50,823 nucleotides of DNA from Thermoplasmata archaeon (GTDB taxonomy: Archaea; Thermoplasmatota; Thermoplasmata; Lutacidiplasmatales; UBA184): assembly GCA_030041175.1 (NCBI GenBank), contig JASHOK010000040.1:1-50823 (forward strand). Direction: 5' to 3'. The translations under genes were made by a program, and so were the position numbers. Each line of letters opens with the position of its first letter. The first letter of the stretch is position 1. The notes beneath the pieces are model-generated. The model did no database searches. It saw nothing but the letters and a program-made list of their open reading frames with translations, and was not told the DNA's origin. Below, one piece after another: positions 14,086 through 50,620 of the stretch.

Positions 14086-14185
14086 GCAGGCGTAATCTAA
14101 TGGTAGGATATCAGCCTTCCAAGCTGAATACCCGGGTTCGATTCGAACGGGCCTCGCGCCCGTCGCGAGACTCCCGGCGCCTGCA
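14086..14185 (+). tRNA. tRNA-Gly(TCC) with an intron in the T loop
   Basis: The gene has a perfect acceptor stem (14086-14092 with 14178-14184, discriminator A 14185), D arm ATCT/GGAT with loop AATGGTA, and anticodon stem TCAGC/GCTGA around CTTCCAA, giving anticodon TCC. The T stem is CCGGG (14132-14136) with CCCGG (14173-14177), but 36 nt rather than 7 separate them. Removing a 29-nt intron (14143-14171) leaves T loop TTCGATT and a 71-nt tRNA. No CCA is encoded. Confidence 0.9.
14143..14171 (+). other. tRNA-Gly intron at position 59/60 with BHB motif
   Basis: The predicted BHB is complete. The outer helix is the T stem. The 4-bp central helix pairs exon TTCG (14137-14140) with intron CGAG (14166-14169), including one G-U pair. 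The 3-nt bulges are 14141-14143 and 14170-14172. The inner helix (14144-14146 with 14163-14165, then 14148-14152 with 14158-14162) has one bulged A. Cutting each bulge after its second base gives these ends. This agreement between fold and mature tRNA fixes the otherwise ambiguous boundary. Confidence 0.85.
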
Positions 14186-14237: not shown

Positions 14238-14282
14238 TCATTATGAGAATCGGGCCGGCTATCGGCCCGCAGCACCCGGTGC
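14238..14282 (+). promoter_or_regulatory. Promoter-like box and leader hairpins before tRNA-Ser
   Basis: A TATA-like cattatgag (14238-14246) lies about 39 nt before the tRNA. Between them is a perfect 7-bp inverted repeat (14251-14257 with 14263-14269, 5-nt loop). A smaller gcac/gtgc repeat (14272-14275 with 14279-14282) overlaps the first two bases of the tRNA and could compete with the acceptor stem in the precursor. Confidence 0.4.
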
Positions 14283-14364
14283 TGAGGTAGCCTAGTCCGG
14301 TAAGGCGCCAGTCTTGAAAACTGGTGGCGGTTCCGCCTCGGGAGTTCAAATCTCCCCCTCAGCG
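14281..14364 (+). tRNA. tRNA-Ser(TGA)
   Basis: A class II tRNA of 84 nt. Acceptor stem GCTGAGG/CCTCAGC with discriminator G, D stem GCC/GGC, anticodon stem CCAGT/ACTGG with loop CTTGAAA (anticodon TGA), a serine-type long variable arm and T arm GGGAG-TTCAAAT-CTCCC. No intron and no encoded CCA. mutS begins 80 nt downstream on the same strand. Confidence 0.95.
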
Positions 14365-14443
14365 CTCCTCTCCGGGATCGTTCTTCGCCCCCCGACCCGC
14401 GAACAAATCGCTAAGAACCTCCGGCCCGCTCGGCCGTCTCCCC

Positions 14444-17065
14444 ATGGTCGAGAGCCCGGCGACGACGCCGATGATGGAACAGTACGAAGCGGTTCGAGCC
14501 CGATACCCGGGCCATCTCGTCCTCTTCCGGGTCGGCGACTTTTTCGAGACGTACGGAGAGGATGCCCGGCTCCTCTCCCGGGAGCTGGAGCTGGTGCTCA
14601 CGGCCCGTGCCCCCGACAGCCGGGGAGAACGGATCCCGATGGCCGGCGTCCCGCACCACGCGGTCGAGAGCTACCTCGGTCGGCTCGTGCGGAAAGGGTA
14701 CAAGGTCGCGCTCTGCGACCAGGTCGAGGACGCCCGACTGGCGAAGGGCCTCGTCCGCCGGGAGGTGACCCGTGTCGTTACGCCGGGAACCGTCCTGGAC
14801 GAGCGGATCCTTCCGGGGCCGGATCACAATTTCCTCGCCGCGGTCTACCGGTCCCAGAGAGGTCCGGGGGCCTTCGCCGCCGTCGACATCACGACGGGCG
14901 AGCTGTTCAGTGGCCCGACCCCGGCCGCGGGTCTCGAAGGCTACGCCGAGGCGCTGACGCCGTTCGATCCTCGGGAGATTCTCGTAAGGTCGGAGGACCA
15001 AACGGACGAGCTCGAGCGCTGCCTCCGGAGAGAGTATCCCCGGGCCCGCATCGAAGCGGTCGCCGCGGGCGGGACATCCCCGGACCTTCCTCCCCCCTTC
15101 CAGGCCGAGGGAGCCACCGAGGCGGAGACCGCCGCCCGGCGTGCGCTGGCAATCTACCTCCAGGCGACCCAGCCCAAGGTCGTTCCCTTCATCGAATCGG
15201 TTTCGCTGGGAGGACCGACCGCCCGCCTTCGGCTCGACTCGAAGAGTCTGCGACATCTCGAGATCTCCCAGCCGATGGACCCCGATTCTCCCGGCACGCC
15301 GACGCTCCTGGACGTGCTCGACGAGACGGTGACGGCCTCCGGCCGCCGGACCTTGGCCTTCTGGCTACGGAACCCTCTGGCGGACGTCGCGGCGATCCAA
15401 CGCCGACACGACGCGGTCGAAGCGCTGCGCACGCGCGGCGCCTGGCTTTCGGTCCTGCGAGAGGAGCTGCGACGGGTTCCCGACCTCGCCCGGATCGGCG
15501 CCCGAGTTGCCGGTCGTCGGGTCCGGCCCCCGGACCTGCTCGGTCTCGCGCAGGGTCTCCGCGCCGCGGCACGCGTACGGGACGGACTCCGTCAGGGCAC
15601 TCTGCCGCCCGGCCTCGACCCCGGCGACGAAGAGCTCCGGCAGTTGATCCCGGTGGCCGAGCGGTTGGAGGCGGCGTTCCGAGACCCCGCTCCGTCCTCG
15701 CCGGACGCCGGCGCCCTGTTTCGACCGGGAGCCGACGCGGAGGTGGACCGATGGTCCGAGGCCGAAGCCGCGGGCCTCTCCGACCTCGAATGCCTGGAGC
15801 GCCGGGAACGCGAGACCTCCGGCCTCCGCTCGGTGCACGTCGGCTACAACCAGGTGTTCGGCTACTACCTGGAGGTTCCCCGATCCCAGACTCGATTGGT
15901 TCCTCCGCACTTCGAGCGCCGTCAAACCCTCGCCGCAGTGGAGCGGTACACGTCTCCGGAGCTCCGGACGATCGAGGAGCGGATCCTCTCGGCGCGCGAC
16001 GCCCTACGGGCCCGGGAGTCCGAGGTCTGGGAACGCTGGCTCTCGGAGCTCGAATCCGTCGTTCCATTGCTCTACCGGCTGGGCCGTCGGCTCGGAGAGC
16101 TGGACGTCCTGGGCACGTTCGCCGCACTTGCGCAGGAACGGGGCTATGTCCGGCCCGTGATCGACGAGAGCCGGGTGCTCCAGATCCGGGAGGGTCGGCA
16201 TCCGATCCTGGACCATCAGCTGGGGAAGGACTTCGTTCCGAACGACACCGACCTCGAGGCGACGGAGGGCCGACTCCTCTTGCTGACCGGACCCAACATG
16301 TCCGGCAAGTCGACGTACATGCGTCAGATCGGACTGCTGGTCGTGATGGCGCAGGTCGGGTCCTACGTGCCGGCCCGCTTCGCGCGGATCGGTCGGGTCA
16401 GCGCCCTGTTCACCCGGATGGGCTTCACCGACGCGATCGGCCGTGGGAAATCCAGTTTCCTGGTCGAGATGACCGAGGTGGCAGAAATCCTCCGGGAGGC
16501 CGACGACCGAAGCCTGGTCCTCCTGGATGAGGTCGGCCGTGGCACGAGCACGTTCGACGGCCTCGCGCTAGCCTGGGCTACGCTCGAGTACCTGCACAAC
16601 CGGATCCGGTGCCGGACCGTGGTGGCGACGCACTTCCACCAGCTCACGGCCCTGGTCGAAGGGCTGCCCGCGGCCCGGAATGCCCACCTCGCCGTGGCCG
16701 AGAAGGACCGGGAGATCACGTTCCTTCGGACCGTCGTACCCGGCAGCACCGACCGGAGCCTCGGGCTGCATGTGGCGCGCGTGGCCGGCGTCCCTCCCGA
16801 GGTCCTCACGGAGTCGGAGCGCCTGCTGAAGCATCTCGAGGCCGAAGGGATCGCGCTGCCGTCCTCGCGTCGCTCCCCGAAGGCCCGGTCTTCCCGGTAC
16901 ACCCAGGCGATCCTCCTGCCGTCGCCCGAGACGCCCGACTCCGAGTTCGGGCGGGCGCTGGCTGCCCTCGATCTGGACACGATGAGTCCGCTGGATGCCC
17001 ATCGGTGGTTGGTCGAGTGGCGCCGGCGCCTCAGCGGTCGTCCGAACTCCGAGGCTCGGCATTGA
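14444..17065 (+). CDS. mutS: DNA mismatch repair protein MutS (bacterial MutS1 type)
   Basis: An 873-residue MutS1 that recognises base mismatches. The N-terminal mismatch-reading FxE motif is present as DFFETYG (about residue 35). The connector, lever and clamp regions follow, then the ATPase with GPNMSGKST (about 616), the DEVGRGTSTFDG Walker B region and a C-terminal dimerisation tail. ATG 14444 is chosen because the frame upstream would run into tRNA-Ser and adds no MutS sequence. MutL overlaps its stop. MutS1/MutL pairs are patchy in archaea and usually regarded as bacterial imports; the position next to two tRNA genes would fit an insertion there, but that is inference. Confidence 0.95.
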   Translation: MVESPATTPMMEQYEAVRARYPGHLVLFRVGDFFETYGEDARLLSRELELVLTARAPDSRGERIPMAGVPHHAVESYLGRLVRKGYKVALCDQVEDARLAKGLVRREVTRVVTPGTVLDERILPGPDHNFLAAVYRSQRGPGAFAAVDITTGELFSGPTPAAGLEGYAEALTPFDPREILVRSEDQTDELERCLRREYPRARIEAVAAGGTSPDLPPPFQAEGATEAETAARRALAIYLQATQPKVVPFIESVSLGGPTARLRLDSKSLRHLEISQPMDPDSPGTPTLLDVLDETVTASGRRTLAFWLRNPLADVAAIQRRHDAVEALRTRGAWLSVLREELRRVPDLARIGARVAGRRVRPPDLLGLAQGLRAAARVRDGLRQGTLPPGLDPGDEELRQLIPVAERLEAAFRDPAPSSPDAGALFRPGADAEVDRWSEAEAAGLSDLECLERRERETSGLRSVHVGYNQVFGYYLEVPRSQTRLVPPHFERRQTLAAVERYTSPELRTIEERILSARDALRARESEVWERWLSELESVVPLLYRLGRRLGELDVLGTFAALAQERGYVRPVIDESRVLQIREGRHPILDHQLGKDFVPNDTDLEATEGRLLLLTGPNMSGKSTYMRQIGLLVVMAQVGSYVPARFARIGRVSALFTRMGFTDAIGRGKSSFLVEMTEVAEILREADDRSLVLLDEVGRGTSTFDGLALAWATLEYLHNRIRCRTVVATHFHQLTALVEGLPAARNAHLAVAEKDREITFLRTVVPGSTDRSLGLHVARVAGVPPEVLTESERLLKHLEAEGIALPSSRRSPKARSSRYTQAILLPSPETPDSEFGRALAALDLDTMSPLDAHRWLVEWRRRLSGRPNSEARH

Positions 17066-18804
17066 GGTCGCGGTCCCGCGCACGCCCGCCGATCCGTCGC
17101 CTGCCGACGGCGACCGTCGAAAAGATCGCGGCGGGGGAGGTCGTGGAGGGTCCGGCTTCGGTGGTGAAGGAGCTGGTCGAGAACTCCATCGACGCGGGCG
17201 CGACGGAGGTCGAGGTCCTCCTCGAAGGGGGTGGCTCGGACCGCATCGTCGTGGCGGACGATGGCGACGGAATCCTGCCGGCCGAGCTCGACCTCGCGGT
17301 CCAGCGGCACGCGACGAGCAAGCTCACGGACCCGGACGATCTCGCCCAGGTCTCGAGTCTCGGCTTTCGGGGAGAGGCCCTGGCCGCCATCGCCCAGGTC
17401 TCCAAGCTTCGGCTGGTGTCGAGGCCTCCCGAGGCGTCCAGCGCGGCGGGCATCACGGTGGAAGGAGGTCGGGTCGGGGCTCGATTCGAGGCGGCGCGAG
17501 CGGTCGGCACTACGGTCGACGTTCAGGACCTGTTCTACAACACGCCCGCTCGGCGGAAATTCCTTCGGACGCCCGCCGCCGAGCAGGTCGAAGTGCTCGC
17601 GACGCTCGAGCGGATCTACCTGGCCCATCCGGACCTCGCCGTCCGGGTCCGGTCCGGAACGGCCGAGATCGGGCGATACCCGCGAGCGGCCAAGCTGGAA
17701 GAAGCGGCGACCTGGGTCTTCGGACCCGAGTTCGTGTCGGCCCAGTTCTCGGTCCGCTCGCCGGGGACATCGCCCGTCGGCTTCCACGGAGTGCTGGCCC
17801 GGCCGACCGTATCGCGGGGAACCTCCGTGGGCATCCAACTCTCGGTGAACGGGCGGGCGATCGTCTCGCGTACGCTATCCCAGGCCGTTCGGGCGGCCTA
17901 TCAGGACTATCTGCCCCGGACCCGCTTCCCGGTCGGGGCGATTCGGCTGACCCTCGACCCGAGCCGGGTCGACGTCAACGTTCATCCCACGAAGCGCGAA
18001 GTGCGGATCCAGGGCGAGCGAGACCTCGCCGACGCCCTGCGGCGGTCCGTCCGCGCCGCCCTTGTGGGCGGCACGCAGGTCGCTGACCTGCCGGCTCCCC
18101 GTCGGTCCGGCACAGCGGCCGTTCCGGAGAAGCCGCGAACGGTGGCACCACTCCCCGCGCTGCGGGGCCAGCAGCAGCGCCTCGAGGAGCCGCCGCCGGC
18201 ACCGCGGATTGCGGGCACCGGTCGGCATCCGGCCGTCACGCTGCTCGGCGCTCTCTTTCGGCTGTACTGGGTCGCCGAGTCCGATGGGGACCTGGTCTTG
18301 ATCGACCAGCATGCCGCCAGCGAACGCGTACTCTACGATGAGCTCCGGCTCACGGGCCGATTGGCCCGGCAGGAGCTCATGGATCCGGTGCGTCTGCCGT
18401 TGACCGCCCGGCAGCGGACCGCCCTGGAGGCAAATCGGGAGCTGCTCCGGTCGGCCGGCTTTGTCATCGAGCCGTTCGGCGGCGACCAGGTTCGGGTCCG
18501 GAGCGTGCCCTCGTACCGTGGACGACGGGCCGAGGCCCGGTCGCTGCCGCCCCTCCTGGACGAGCTCGCCGATGGAGGACGACCGACGGTGCCGGAGGGC
18601 CTGGCGGAGCGCGTGGCCGCCTCCGTGGCCTGCCATGCCGCCGTGCGCGCCGGAGATGAGATCACGGCCGAGGAACTCGGTCGGGTCCTGGAGGCGCTCT
18701 ACCGGACGGAGGCGCCGGCCTATGCCTGTCCCCACGGCCGTCCGGTCATCGTCCGACTGCCGCGGAGCCGCCTCGACGGCTGGTTCCTCCGGCGCGGTGC
18801 CTAG
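17062..18804 (+). CDS. mutL: DNA mismatch repair protein MutL
   Basis: A 580-residue MutL. The GHKL ATPase motifs are visible: VVKELVENSIDAGA, VADDGDGI and LGFRGEALAAI, all in the first 110 residues. The C-terminal dimerisation/nuclease domain carries the metal-site motifs DQHA (415-418), ACHAAVRAGD and CPHGRP. In the nuclease motif DQHA(X)2E(X)4E the final acidic position is Asp426, followed by Glu427, instead of the expected Glu. TTG 17062 overlaps the MutS stop as TTGA, giving a normal start just before IRRLP. The stop overlaps the convergent glycosyltransferase by 4 nt. Confidence 0.94.
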   Translation: MRSRSRARPPIRRLPTATVEKIAAGEVVEGPASVVKELVENSIDAGATEVEVLLEGGGSDRIVVADDGDGILPAELDLAVQRHATSKLTDPDDLAQVSSLGFRGEALAAIAQVSKLRLVSRPPEASSAAGITVEGGRVGARFEAARAVGTTVDVQDLFYNTPARRKFLRTPAAEQVEVLATLERIYLAHPDLAVRVRSGTAEIGRYPRAAKLEEAATWVFGPEFVSAQFSVRSPGTSPVGFHGVLARPTVSRGTSVGIQLSVNGRAIVSRTLSQAVRAAYQDYLPRTRFPVGAIRLTLDPSRVDVNVHPTKREVRIQGERDLADALRRSVRAALVGGTQVADLPAPRRSGTAAVPEKPRTVAPLPALRGQQQRLEEPPPAPRIAGTGRHPAVTLLGALFRLYWVAESDGDLVLIDQHAASERVLYDELRLTGRLARQELMDPVRLPLTARQRTALEANRELLRSAGFVIEPFGGDQVRVRSVPSYRGRRAEARSLPPLLDELADGGRPTVPEGLAERVAASVACHAAVRAGDEITAEELGRVLEALYRTEAPAYACPHGRPVIVRLPRSRLDGWFLRRGA

Positions 18805-46067: not shown

Positions 46068-46379
46068 GTGACGGCTGCGGATAGCCGCGCCGTGCCGCCG
46101 ACCGCCGGCGACTCGGCGATCGGTGCCACCAAGTCCGGTCAGCTGGAGCGCATCGCGCAATCGCTCGCCGCCCTCAGCGAGGACGGGTCCGTGCCCCGGA
46201 ACATCCGTCGCGGCGCGCAGTCCGCGCGCGACGAGCTTCTCAAGAACGCGGTGGCGCTCGACGTCCGAGTCGCGAGCGCGGTCTACGTGCTGGACGACCT
46301 CGCCAACGACTCGAATCTTCCCACGCATGGCCGAACCGCCATCTGGTCGATCATCTCGAACCTGGAGAGCCTTCAGTGA
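46068..46379 (+). CDS. UPF0147 family protein
   Basis: A 103-residue archaeal UPF0147 protein of unknown function. The core is a helical bundle recognised by LSEDGSVPRNIRRGAQ, ARDELL and VYVLDDLANDSNLPTHGRTAIW. It is a little longer than most homologues because of an N-terminal extension of about 20 residues. GTG 46068 follows the RAM-domain gene by 22 nt. The tRNA-Lys gene lies 59 nt downstream. Confidence 0.88.
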   Translation: MTAADSRAVPPTAGDSAIGATKSGQLERIAQSLAALSEDGSVPRNIRRGAQSARDELLKNAVALDVRVASAVYVLDDLANDSNLPTHGRTAIWSIISNLESLQ

Positions 46380-46407: not shown

Positions 46408-46460
46408 GCCTCGGGTCGTGACTGGTCGGAGCGATCGCGGGCCCGTAGCTCAGTTCGGTA

Positions 46461-46489
46461 GGTCGGCGGGTACGCCCGTCGGCCCGACA
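46461..46489 (+). other. tRNA-Lys D-loop intron (position 20a/20b) with BHB motif
   Basis: The 4-bp central helix pairs exon TCGG (46455-46458) with intron CCGA (46484-46487), all Watson-Crick. The 3-nt bulges are 46459-46461 and 46488-46490. The inner helix is 9 bp (46462-46470 with 46475-46483, two G-U pairs) closed by a 4-nt TACG loop. The outer side is weak: one A-U pair, then the D stem. The cuts restore A21 and a normal D loop. Confidence 0.85.
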
Positions 46490-46529
46490 CAGAGCATCTG
46501 GCTTTTAACCAGGCGGTCGGGGGTTCGAA

Positions 46530-46567
46530 CGAGCGCCGCCGTACCGACTGGGCGCGCACTCCGGACA
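46530..46567 (+). other. tRNA-Lys T-loop intron (position 59/60) with BHB motif
   Basis: The outer helix is the T stem. The central helix pairs exon TTCG (46524-46527) with intron CGGA (46562-46565), with one G-U pair. The 3-nt bulges are 46528-46530 and 46566-46568. The inner helix is 46531-46533 with 46559-46561, then 46534-46536 with 46554-46556 after a 2-nt bulge. The cuts restore T loop TTCGAAT. Confidence 0.85.
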
Positions 46568-46602
46568 TCCCCCCGGGCCCGTTCCGCTCCGCTGGAGTCC
46601 GC

Positions 46603-46935
46603 ATGAGTCCCTCGCGCGCCCGAGCACCCCGGAAATCCGCCAAGAGCGCAAAGGCACCGCCCCGTCGGGAATTCCAGACCCATCACCTGATCCCTCCGCA
46701 CGAGCTCTTGACCGAGGACGAGGCCCGGCAGGTGCTGGCCGACCTCGCCACGCCGGTCGAGCGGCTGCCGAAGATCCTGGCCGCCGACCCCGGGCTTCTC
46801 ACGAGTTCCGAGGTCCGCGCCGCCCGCGAGTCGGGCGAACCGCTCGCCGGTCGCATGGTCCGCATCCGTCGGCCGTCCCCCACGGCCGGCGAGGCGATCA
46901 CGTACCGCGTCGTCATCACCAACCTGGGGGACTAA
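46603..46935 (+). CDS. rpoH: DNA-directed RNA polymerase subunit H (Rpb5 C-terminal-like)
   Basis: A 110-residue RpoH. The conserved core starts near residue 26 ([16 protein letters not shown]) and ends with [10 protein letters not shown], as in archaeal RpoH, which equals the C-terminal assembly domain of eukaryotic Rpb5. About 24 residues at the N-terminus, rich in Lys, Arg, Ala and Pro, are extra compared with the usual length of about 80. ATG 46603 has a GGAG a few nucleotides upstream. rpoB starts 13 nt after the stop, the normal archaeal rpoH-rpoB order. Confidence 0.93.
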
Positions 46936-46948
46936 CGAGGTTCCATTC

Positions 46949-49900
46949 ATGCGAGAGATCGTAGACGCCTTTTTCCGGGAGCGCTCCACCGTCAACCACC
47001 ACCTGGCGAGCTTCAACGACTTCCTGCCGACCCCTGACAATCCGAACTCGCGGATGCAGCGGATCGTCGATGAGGCCCGTGTCAGCGAGGACTCGACCGA
47101 CCGGGGAGTCATCCGGCTGGATGTCCAGAAGACGAAGAGCTCCATCTACGTCCGCGTCGGACGCCGGCGCGATCCGCGGGGACAGCTCGACGTGAACTCC
47201 GAGCCGACGGTCTTCGTCGGTCAGCCGTTCGTGAAGGAACCGGTTGGCTCGAAGCCGACCCTCACACCGATGGAGGCCCGGCTCCGGAACCTGACCTATC
47301 AGGCACCCATCTACCTCCGGGTCACCGTCGTCGAGAACGGCGTGGAACGGGCGCCCGAGGATGTCCACATCGGCGACCTGCCGATCATGGTCAAGAGCCG
47401 GCCGTGCAACCTGCACCAGGGCAACATCGAACGCGACTCGGGCTTCCCGCTGTCGGCCGAAGAATACCGGGCGAAGCTCGTCGAGTACGGCGAGGACCCG
47501 GCCGACCCCGGCGGCTACTTCATCATCGGCGGGACCGAGCGCGTGATCATGAGTCTCGAGGACCTCGCGCCGAACCGGATCTTCGCCGAGTTCAACGAGC
47601 GGTACGGGACGCCCATCGAGAGCGCGAAGGTCTTCTCGCAGCGCGGCGGCTACCGGTCGCTCACCGTCGTCGAGAAGAAGAAGGACGGCGTGCTCCACGT
47701 CTCCGTTCCGAGCGCGTCGGGACAGATCCCGCTGGCCATCCTGATGAAGGCTCTCGGGATGAAGAACGACGAGGAGATCTATCAGGCCGTCCTCGGCGAA
47801 CTCCTCCCGCTGGACGAACCGTTCGTCCAGACGATGAAGCACCTGCTCAATGTCAACCTCGAGGAGTGCATCTCGAAGAAGCTCTACCCGCCGGAAGGGA
47901 TCCTGACGACCGAGGACGCCCTCCTGTACCTCGAAAAGAAGTTCGCGACCGGTCAGGCGAAGGAGTACCGGCAGCGCAAGGTCGACGGCATCCTGGACCG
48001 TTCGCTGCTCCCGCACCTCGGCGACACGAAGACGGACCGCCTCAAGAAGGCCCTCTATCTGGGTCGAATGGCCCGTACCGTCCTCGAGCTCAACCTCGGA
48101 CAGCGGGGCGAGGACGACAAGGACCACTACGCGAACAAGCGCCTCAAGCTCGCGGGCGACCTCATGGAGGATCTCTTCCGCGTCGCCTTCACGATGCTGC
48201 TGAAGGACCTCAAGTACCAGCTCGAGCGGTCCTTCGCCCGGAAGAAGGACCTCCGGATCGCCTCGGCCATCCGGCCGGACTTGCTGACCCAACGGCTCGT
48301 CCACGCGCTCGCCACGGGCAACTGGGTCGGTGGCCGCGCCGGCGTGAGCCAACTGCTCGACCGGACGAGCCACATGTCCACCATTTCTCACCTGCGCCGG
48401 GTCACGAGTCCGCTCACACGGTCCCAACCCCACTTCGAGGCCCGGGACCTGCACCCGACGCAGTGGGGCCGGCTCTGTCCGAACGAAACGCCCGAGGGAC
48501 AGAACTGCGGTCTCGTCAAGAACTATGCCCTCTGCGTGGACGTTTCCGAGGGTGCTGACGAAGAGGAGGTCGCGCTCATCCTGCGGGACCTGAACACTCG
48601 GGAGATCGGTCCCGAGGTCTTCCAGGAAGCCGCCGCTCCGCGCGGCAAGCGGGCTGCGCGGGTCTACGTCAACGGGAACCTCATCGGCCTCCACTCCAAC
48701 CCGACCGAGCTCGTGCAGGAGATCCGTGAGCGTCGGCGCTCCGGAACGCTCTCCCCGACGCTCGGCGACCGGATCTACGAGATCAACGTCCGCAGCGACC
48801 AGCGGATGAACGAGGTCATCGTCCACTGCGACTCCGGCCGTCTCCGCCGGCCGCTCATCAGCGTCAAGGACGCGACGCCCCGGGTGACCCGCTCCGACCT
48901 CGACGAGCTCGCGCGGGGAACGCTCTCCTACACCGACCTGATCCGTCAGGGCAAGGTCGAGTGGCTCGATGCGGAGGAAGAGGAGGACACGCTCGTCGGC
49001 GTCGACGCCTTCCAGCCTCCCGAGCGCTGCCCGAGCTGCCAGAAGGCCCTGTCCCGCAGCGACATTCGGTGGGTCTCGGCGGGCGAGAAGAAGGACGCCG
49101 CCGACGTCGAGTGCGGCCGCTGTCACCACGTCTTCACGACACCCTCGCTGCTGCGGAAGGAACACACGCATCTGGAGATCGACCCGAACCTGATCCTCGG
49201 GGTCTGCACCGGCCTCATTCCCTACGCGGAGCACAACTCCACCCCGCGGAACACCATGGGCTCCGGAATGGCCAAGCAGGCGCTCGGAGTCGAGTCGGTG
49301 AACTACCGCCGGCGGCCGGACACGCGCGGCCACCTGCTGCACTACCCCGAGGCACCGCTGCTGCGCACGCAGACAATGCGGTACGTGCAGTTCACCGAAC
49401 GGCCCGCCGGCCAGAACTTCGTCGTCGCGGTGCTGACTCACGAGGGCTACAACATGCAGGACGCCCTCGTCTTCTCGCAAGCCGCGATCGACCGAGGCCT
49501 CGGACGTTCCTCGTTCTTCCGAACCTACCGCGGGGAGGAGCGCAAGTATCCCGGTGGCCAGGAGGACCGCTTCGAGATCCCGCGACCCGATGTCGCCGGG
49601 GCGCGCGTCGATACGGCCTACCGGAACCTCGGCGAGGACGGTCTCATCTATCCGGAGCTCGAGGTCACCGAGAGCGATGTCCTCGTCGGCAAGACCTCGC
49701 CGCCGCGATTCCTCGAAGAGAAGACGGACCTGCTGACGCCGCAGAAGCGTCGCGAGACCTCCGTCACGGTCCGGGCCGGCGAGTCCGGCTGGGTCGACAG
49801 CGTCATCCTGACCGAGGGAGAGAACATCTCGAAGCTCGTCAAGGTCAAGGTCCGGAATCAGCGGGTCCCGGAACTGGGCGACAAGTTCGCCTCCCGGCAC

Positions 49901-50620
49901 GGCCAGAAGGGCGTCGTGGGGCTCATCGTTCCCCAGGAGAACATGCCATACACCCGCGACGGCATCACGCCCGACCTCATCGTCAACCCGCACGCCATTC
50001 CATCGCGCATGACGGTCGCCCACGTGCTCGAGATGTTGGGCGGCAAAGTCGGCTCGCTCGAGGGCCGATACATTGACGGTACGCCGTTCTCGGGAGAGCG
50101 CGAGGAAGCGCTCCGGGAGTCGCTCAAGTCCCTCGGCTTCCACCCGTCCGGCCGGGAAACGTTCTACGACGGAGTCACCGGCCGGCGTCTGGACGGCGAG
50201 GTGTTCGTCGGCGTGATCTACTACCAGAAGCTCCACCACATGGTCGCCGGGAAGATGCACATGCGTTCCCGGGGCCCCGTGCAGATCCTGACCCGGCAGC
50301 CGACCGAGGGTCGGTCCCGGCAAGGGGGTCTTCGATTCGGAGAGATGGAGCGGGACTGTCTCATCGGCCACGGCGTGGCGATGGTGATCAAGGACCGGCT
50401 GCTCGACGAGTCGGATGGCACGATCCAGTACGTCTGCGGCAACACCGAGTGCGGCCACATCGCCATCCCGGATGCCCGGACCGGATCGCTCCGGTGCCCG
50501 AGCTGCGGCAACACCTCGTCGATCTACCCGGTCGAGATGAGCTACTCGTTCAAGCTGCTCCTGGAGGAGCTGATCAGCCTCGGCGTGATCATGCGGCTCC
50601 AGTTGGAGGACATGCGCTAG
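46949..50620 (+). CDS. rpoB: DNA-directed RNA polymerase subunit B (unsplit), with an extra zinc-ribbon-like insert
   Basis: A 1223-residue second-largest RNA polymerase subunit in one piece, not divided into B'' and B'. The protrusion, lobe, fork, hybrid-binding, wall and clamp regions are in order. Signatures include [19 protein letters not shown], the catalytic-side [15 protein letters not shown] and the terminal zinc motif CGNTECG with CPSCGN. Between the lobe-to-hybrid stretch ending LDAEEEE and HTHLEIDP there is a four-cysteine insert (C694, C697, C722, C725) that I do not recall in archaeal homologues. rpoA1 follows after 11 nt. Confidence 0.96.

Follow-up and report, generated by a model that had tools for sequence, protein, structure and literature searches.

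A tRNA-Lys(UUU) gene with introns in the D and T loops, recurrent among Thermoplasmatota, in a genome that encodes an alpha'2-type splicing endonuclease

The only tRNA-Lys(UUU) gene that we found in the genome of a Thermoplasmatota archaeon is interrupted in both the D loop and the T loop, and is confirmed as a real tRNA gene with two introns. It occupies positions 46439–46581 on the forward strand of the analysed stretch of 50,823 nucleotides (hereafter, the window). Introns of the bulge-helix-bulge (BHB) kind at unusual positions are known, and here they are conserved in a lineage that had not been expected to have them. We are highly confident in a reading in which both introns are BHB introns cut by an alpha'2-type EndA, the exons are joined by RtcB into a 74-nt tRNA, and the introns are old and vertically inherited. 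Each intron would fold back on the exon loop to form a short exon–intron helix between two bulges, the two-unit homodimeric EndA would cut within these bulges, and RtcB would ligate the exons into a standard tRNA-Lys(UUU). The introns would have been passed down vertically within Thermoplasmatota, their sequences changing fast while their helices are kept; many further tRNAs of this family have T-loop introns as well.

The gene is 143 nt long unspliced and 74 nt spliced, and is parsed as GGGCCCG-TA-GCTC-AGTTCGGT[31 nt]A-GAGC-A-TCTGG-CTTTTAA-CCAGG-CGGTC-GGGGG-TTCGAA[38 nt]T-CCCCC-CGGGCCC-G. All of its parts lie on the forward strand. Exon 1 (46439–46459) comprises the 5' strand of the acceptor stem, the D stem and the D loop up to U20, and is followed by a D-loop intron of 31 nt (46460–46490) that covariation and register analysis place at 20/21. 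Exon 2 (46491–46529) consists of A21, the 3' strand of the D stem, the anticodon arm, the variable loop, the 5' strand of the T stem and TTCGAA; its anticodon loop, CTTTTAA (anticodon at 46504–46506), has no intron. The T-loop intron (46530–46567, 38 nt) sits at position 59/60, where the T stem serves as its outer helix, and exon 3 (46568–46581) supplies T60, the 3' strands of the T stem and the acceptor stem, and the discriminator G73. When the 31 and 38 nt are cut out in silico, ARAGORN calls a normal tRNA-Lys(ttt). The coordinates, the lengths of both inserts, the perfect tRNA-Lys(TTT) restored by their removal and the absence of an anticodon-loop intron were all correctly given in an earlier note made from the sequence. 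Its mature length of 76 nt was not, since removal of 31 and 38 nt leaves 74 nt; a 76-nt product presupposes a D intron of 29 nt.

The exons are contiguous and in order, which sets the gene apart from split or permuted tRNA genes. An Rfam scan of the window gave a single match, to a tRNA-Ser elsewhere, and no group I or other catalogued self-splicing RNA. The predicted T-intron motif is a canonical BHB (GGGGG-UUCG-AA^C ... CGGA-CA^U-CCCCC), and the free MFE fold of the unspliced RNA contains the T stem, the 4-bp UUCG/CGGA helix, the 3-nt bulges AAC and CAU and an intron stem. The earlier note had assigned 3-nt bulges and a 4-bp central helix to both introns; this holds for the T intron, whereas the central helix of the D intron is perfect only if the intron is taken as 29 nt long, and its outer helix is unstacked. 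The D-side motif is not a textbook hBHBh', since nucleotides 14–15 separate the D stem from the central helix.

Two registers can be drawn for the D intron: 31 nt at 20/21, or 29 nt at 20a/20b (46461–46489), the latter leaving 11 nt in the D loop of a 76-nt mature tRNA. The central helix is a perfect 4 bp in this species and 12 others solely under the 29-nt register (UCGG/CCGA in this gene, where the 31-nt register has a U16–C mismatch). Covariation across species points the other way. We compared 81 distinct D introns and 68 distinct T introns with shuffle controls, which ignore the kinship of the sequences. Exon position 17a pairs with the intron in 81/81 D introns (A–U in 63, C–G in 18) against a shuffle maximum of 63, and exon position 16 does so in 66 of the 81 (shuffle maximum 56). 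The first inner pair is formed in every one of the 81 (G–C 77, A–U 4; shuffle maximum 80). Both the pair between position 16 and the intron and the covarying G–C/A–U first inner pair suit 20/21 and argue against 29 nt. The 11-nt D loop, too, is at odds with the 9 nt seen in tRNA-Lys(TTT) genes of the phylum that lack introns and in this genome's own intronless tRNA-Lys(CTT). Because of this covariation and the D loop of the intronless homologues, a 31-nt intron at 20/21, which would give a 9-nt D loop, is the favoured assignment, and we leave the 29-nt register a small but real probability.

In the T introns, the exon strand of the central helix is invariant over the 68 sequences and hence uninformative for covariation; inner pairs 3–5 are formed in 52–54 of the 68, above every shuffle (maxima 40–46). 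Over both sets, the introns carry compensatory changes across species. The 64 exon positions compared (the D stem and positions 8–9 being left out) are all identical to those of two close relatives, and the T intron matches the same relatives in 29 of 39 aligned columns. These observations bear on the alternative of a decayed pseudogene that has taken up random insertions, AAA codons being read by some other tRNA. The gene is indeed invisible to standard tRNA finders (neither ARAGORN nor Rfam RF00005 calls a tRNA in the unspliced sequence), and the genome is incomplete. Against decay stand intact exons that are identical in relatives, next to introns that vary with compensatory changes; moreover, the gene recurs in several families and no other Lys(TTT) was found in this genome, so that we regard the pseudogene explanation as extremely improbable. 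A second intact tRNA-Lys(TTT), raised in the earlier note as a reason for doubt, was not found by a search of this genome for an intronless gene; as the genome is 89% complete, such a copy could lie in the missing portion.

The genome is a metagenome-assembled genome (MAG) of a soil archaeon. In the best segments, its RpoB is 99% identical to that of Thermoplasmata archaeon JOPF056, 97% to that of SubAcS15-31 and 90% to that of Candidatus Lutacidiplasma silvani. These identities make the host a Thermoplasmatota archaeon, as the earlier note had supposed, probably at or near the order Lutacidiplasmatales. The tRNA gene is preceded by a gene for a UPF0147 protein (46068–46379, forward strand; Pfam PF03685) and followed by those for RNA polymerase subunits H (46603–46935, forward strand; Rpb5 C-terminal family, PF01191) and B (46949–50620, forward strand; Pfam RNA_pol_Rpb2 domains). 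Homologous loci were fetched via the similarity of their RpoB orthologues; 66 sequences, counting that of the window, yielded a tRNA-Lys(TTT) parse, and 15 were left unparsed, several of them since the contig starts past the tRNA. Among the 66 genes, which lie upstream of rpoH-rpoB and include some labelled Methanomassiliicoccales, the D intron is present in all; 62 have the T intron, 17 have an intron at 37/38, and 15 have all three. The three-intron arrangement (D loop, 37/38 and T loop) is seen, among others, in loci L065, L066, L074, L093, L096 and L098.

A search pattern for the D-intron gene matched 25 of 194 genomes of the phylum and its reversed control none, which excludes a chance origin of the gene shape. 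The matches include 7/7 genomes of the family to which the window belongs and extend to several families beyond its class. A pattern for the intronless tRNA-Lys matched 116 of the 194, this genome not among them, and no genome matched both; the two patterns are strict and some of the 194 genomes match neither. In some lineages tRNA-Lys has the T intron only, in others the D intron only or the D and 37/38 introns.

Other tRNA genes of the genome were examined by in-silico splicing with ARAGORN and with a covariance model for which eight T-intron tRNAs were used, five from this genome. We located 39 tRNA genes: 21 seem to be free of introns, a T-loop intron is present in 13, and the only intron lies in the anticodon loop in 4 and in the D loop in 1. 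The T-loop introns are found in the genes for Lys(TTT), Gly(TCC), Asn(GTT), Arg(TCT), Arg(TCG), Asp(GTC), Glu(CTC), Gln(CTG), Ala(GGC), His(GTG), Ser(GCT) and Ser(CGA) and, as read by hand, Leu(TAG), and all of them share the position 59/60; anticodon-loop introns occur in the Tyr, Met, Glu(TTC) and Leu(TAA) genes. In 6 of the 13 T-loop introns, those of Arg(TCT), Glu(CTC), Ala, His, Ser(GCT) and Ser(CGA), the central helix consists of an A57–G mismatch and three pairs, and the hand-read helix of Leu(TAG) resembles this group. Compared among 12 different tRNAs of the genome, the T introns showed no clear sign of recent copying: the Ala-GGC/Ser-CGA pair reached a score of 11.0, equal to the highest of 200 shuffled sets, and the remaining pairs were unremarkable. 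All 7 model matches at the threshold in this genome are intron genes; in other genomes this was checked for sampled loci only. Each of 24 sampled genomes of the family (24/24) yielded 4 to 8 strong matches among the ten candidates scored per genome, counts that are rough since some plain tRNAs may pass the threshold.

We found one EndA locus in the genome, which encodes a protein of 355 aa with two units in one chain. It holds two PF01974 and two PF02778 stretches and has fused-type EndA structures as its best matches, so that, judged by its sequence, this EndA is of the alpha'2 type with a catalytic C-terminal unit. Between 'YGS' and 'LSLLEA' the alignment has no insert and the length is that of wild-type Archaeoglobus EndA (2gjw, 1r0v), whereas 3p1y, which probably is the CSL-bearing Archaeoglobus mutant of PMC6379350, carries an insert before the catalytic unit and the EndA of this genome is shorter there. 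The CSL/ASL specificity-loop insert of broad-specificity EndA is absent by this alignment. The earlier note had called for the endonuclease to be classified, and the answer is thus an alpha'2 EndA lacking that insert. An RtcB ligase is also encoded. In most of the phylum's genomes that were tested, a single frame of about 300–400 aa holds two EndA units; some families have a single EndA match per frame, probably because the first unit has diverged.

A standard alpha'2 EndA might not suffice for intron removal, which could require additional subunits, a helper protein or a broadened enzyme specificity. The A57–G mismatch in the central helix of about half of the T-loop introns of this genome and the relaxed D-side motif would fit such a requirement, as would the description of alpha'2 enzymes as narrow (PMC6379350, PMC12397907). 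Set against this are the single EndA locus found, the canonical T intron of tRNA-Lys and the finding that the alpha'2 enzyme of Archaeoglobus removes a relaxed 37/38 motif from full-length pre-tRNA (PMC6379350), a report in which D- and T-loop positions are unmentioned. We consider such a requirement quite unlikely and presume that EndA acts unaided; the U16–C mismatch, the unstacked outer helix on the D side and the narrow specificity described for alpha'2 enzymes (PMC6379350) nevertheless lower our confidence in the splicing of two BHB introns.

Reviews associate multiple tRNA introns, and those at non-canonical positions, with endonucleases of the (alpha-beta)2 or epsilon2 type (PMC4090602; for specificity, PMC4033280), and Euryarchaeota with alpha4 or alpha2 enzymes are described as having a single intron at the canonical position (PMC4090602); Methanopyrus and Methanothermobacter are euryarchaeal multi-intron exceptions (PMC4033280), and the EndA of Thermoplasma is listed as narrow (PMC6379350). 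One intron model of tRNAscan-SE 2.0 was trained on introns of Crenarchaeota and Euryarchaeota (PMC8450103), which implies that non-canonical euryarchaeal introns were already known. tRNAscan-SE has been run on Lutacidiplasmatales genomes with introns unmentioned (PMC9287336). Our literature search, which had partial coverage, found no report that describes tRNA introns in the D or T loop for Thermoplasmatota, although GtRNAdb and similar databases may include them. The host, called unexpected in the earlier note, is so with respect to the published generalisations and not in view of the recurrence of these introns across Thermoplasmatota and in about 12 other tRNAs of this genome.

The closest parallel is with the Thermoproteales, where, as far as Sugahara 2008 is cited in PMC8450103 and PMC4033280, several BHB introns per gene at non-canonical positions likewise affect many tRNAs per genome. 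The EndA of the Thermoproteales is a broad-specificity (alpha-beta)2 enzyme, in contrast to the alpha'2 enzyme without specificity-loop insert described here, and a further difference is that the T-loop introns found in this genome share the single position 59/60; this genome has neither the crenarchaeal host nor the (alpha-beta)2 EndA of a Thermoproteales-type system. With canonical 37/38 archaeal introns, the tRNA-Lys introns would share the BHB motif and the EndA/RtcB pathway; they differ in position, since they interrupt the D and T loops and not the anticodon loop. A eukaryotic tRNA with introns in the D, anticodon and T arms resembles the three-intron tRNA-Lys of some Thermoplasmatota, with no relationship implied.

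We tentatively propose, at slightly less than even chances, that Thermoplasmatota break the accepted link between endonuclease type and intron diversity: an alpha'2 EndA without specificity loop would serve a genome with T-loop introns at 59/60 in about one-third of its tRNAs and D-loop introns in some, either because this class of enzyme is broader than thought or because a new mechanism of specificity has evolved. A phylum-wide exception with an alpha'2 enzyme would make the idea of enzyme–intron co-evolution directly testable. Ideas on why such introns persist include a shield of tRNA genes from integrases and a processing checkpoint ahead of T-loop modification.

A genome survey of Methanomassiliicoccus luminyensis listed no tRNA-Lys and put this down to missing sequence (PMC4153887). 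Methanomassiliicoccus-labelled MAGs (loci L075, L085 and L087) carry the intron-rich tRNA-Lys gene, and ARAGORN misreads such genes even with the T intron removed; for these reasons the tRNA-Lys of M. luminyensis may simply have been overlooked.

Some further observations concern individual genes. About a dozen other T-loop-intron tRNAs are missed or mis-ended by standard tRNA searches; such tRNAs lie on contigs C45, C54, C65, C73, C7, C59, C86, C33 and C64 (loci L113–L124 and L029). A tRNA-Arg(GCG) gene on contig C30 (L031:1465–1576), which ARAGORN mis-calls as tRNA-Ser(gga), appears by eye to have a D-loop intron, and tRNA-Leu(TAG) (C59:9130–9274; L124) combines its T-loop intron with extra D-arm sequence in a parse that is uncertain. 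In the window, tRNA-Gly(TCC) (14086–14185, forward strand), recognized by ARAGORN after in-silico splicing, has a 29-nt T-loop intron at 59/60 (14143–14171); its covariance-model score is 82.9 bits, the gene itself being among the model's eight. A tRNA-Ser(TGA) gene that has no intron (14281–14365) follows ∼95 bases downstream, and directly after that gene come adjacent genes of the MutS and MutL families (14324–17065 and 16609–18804, forward strand).
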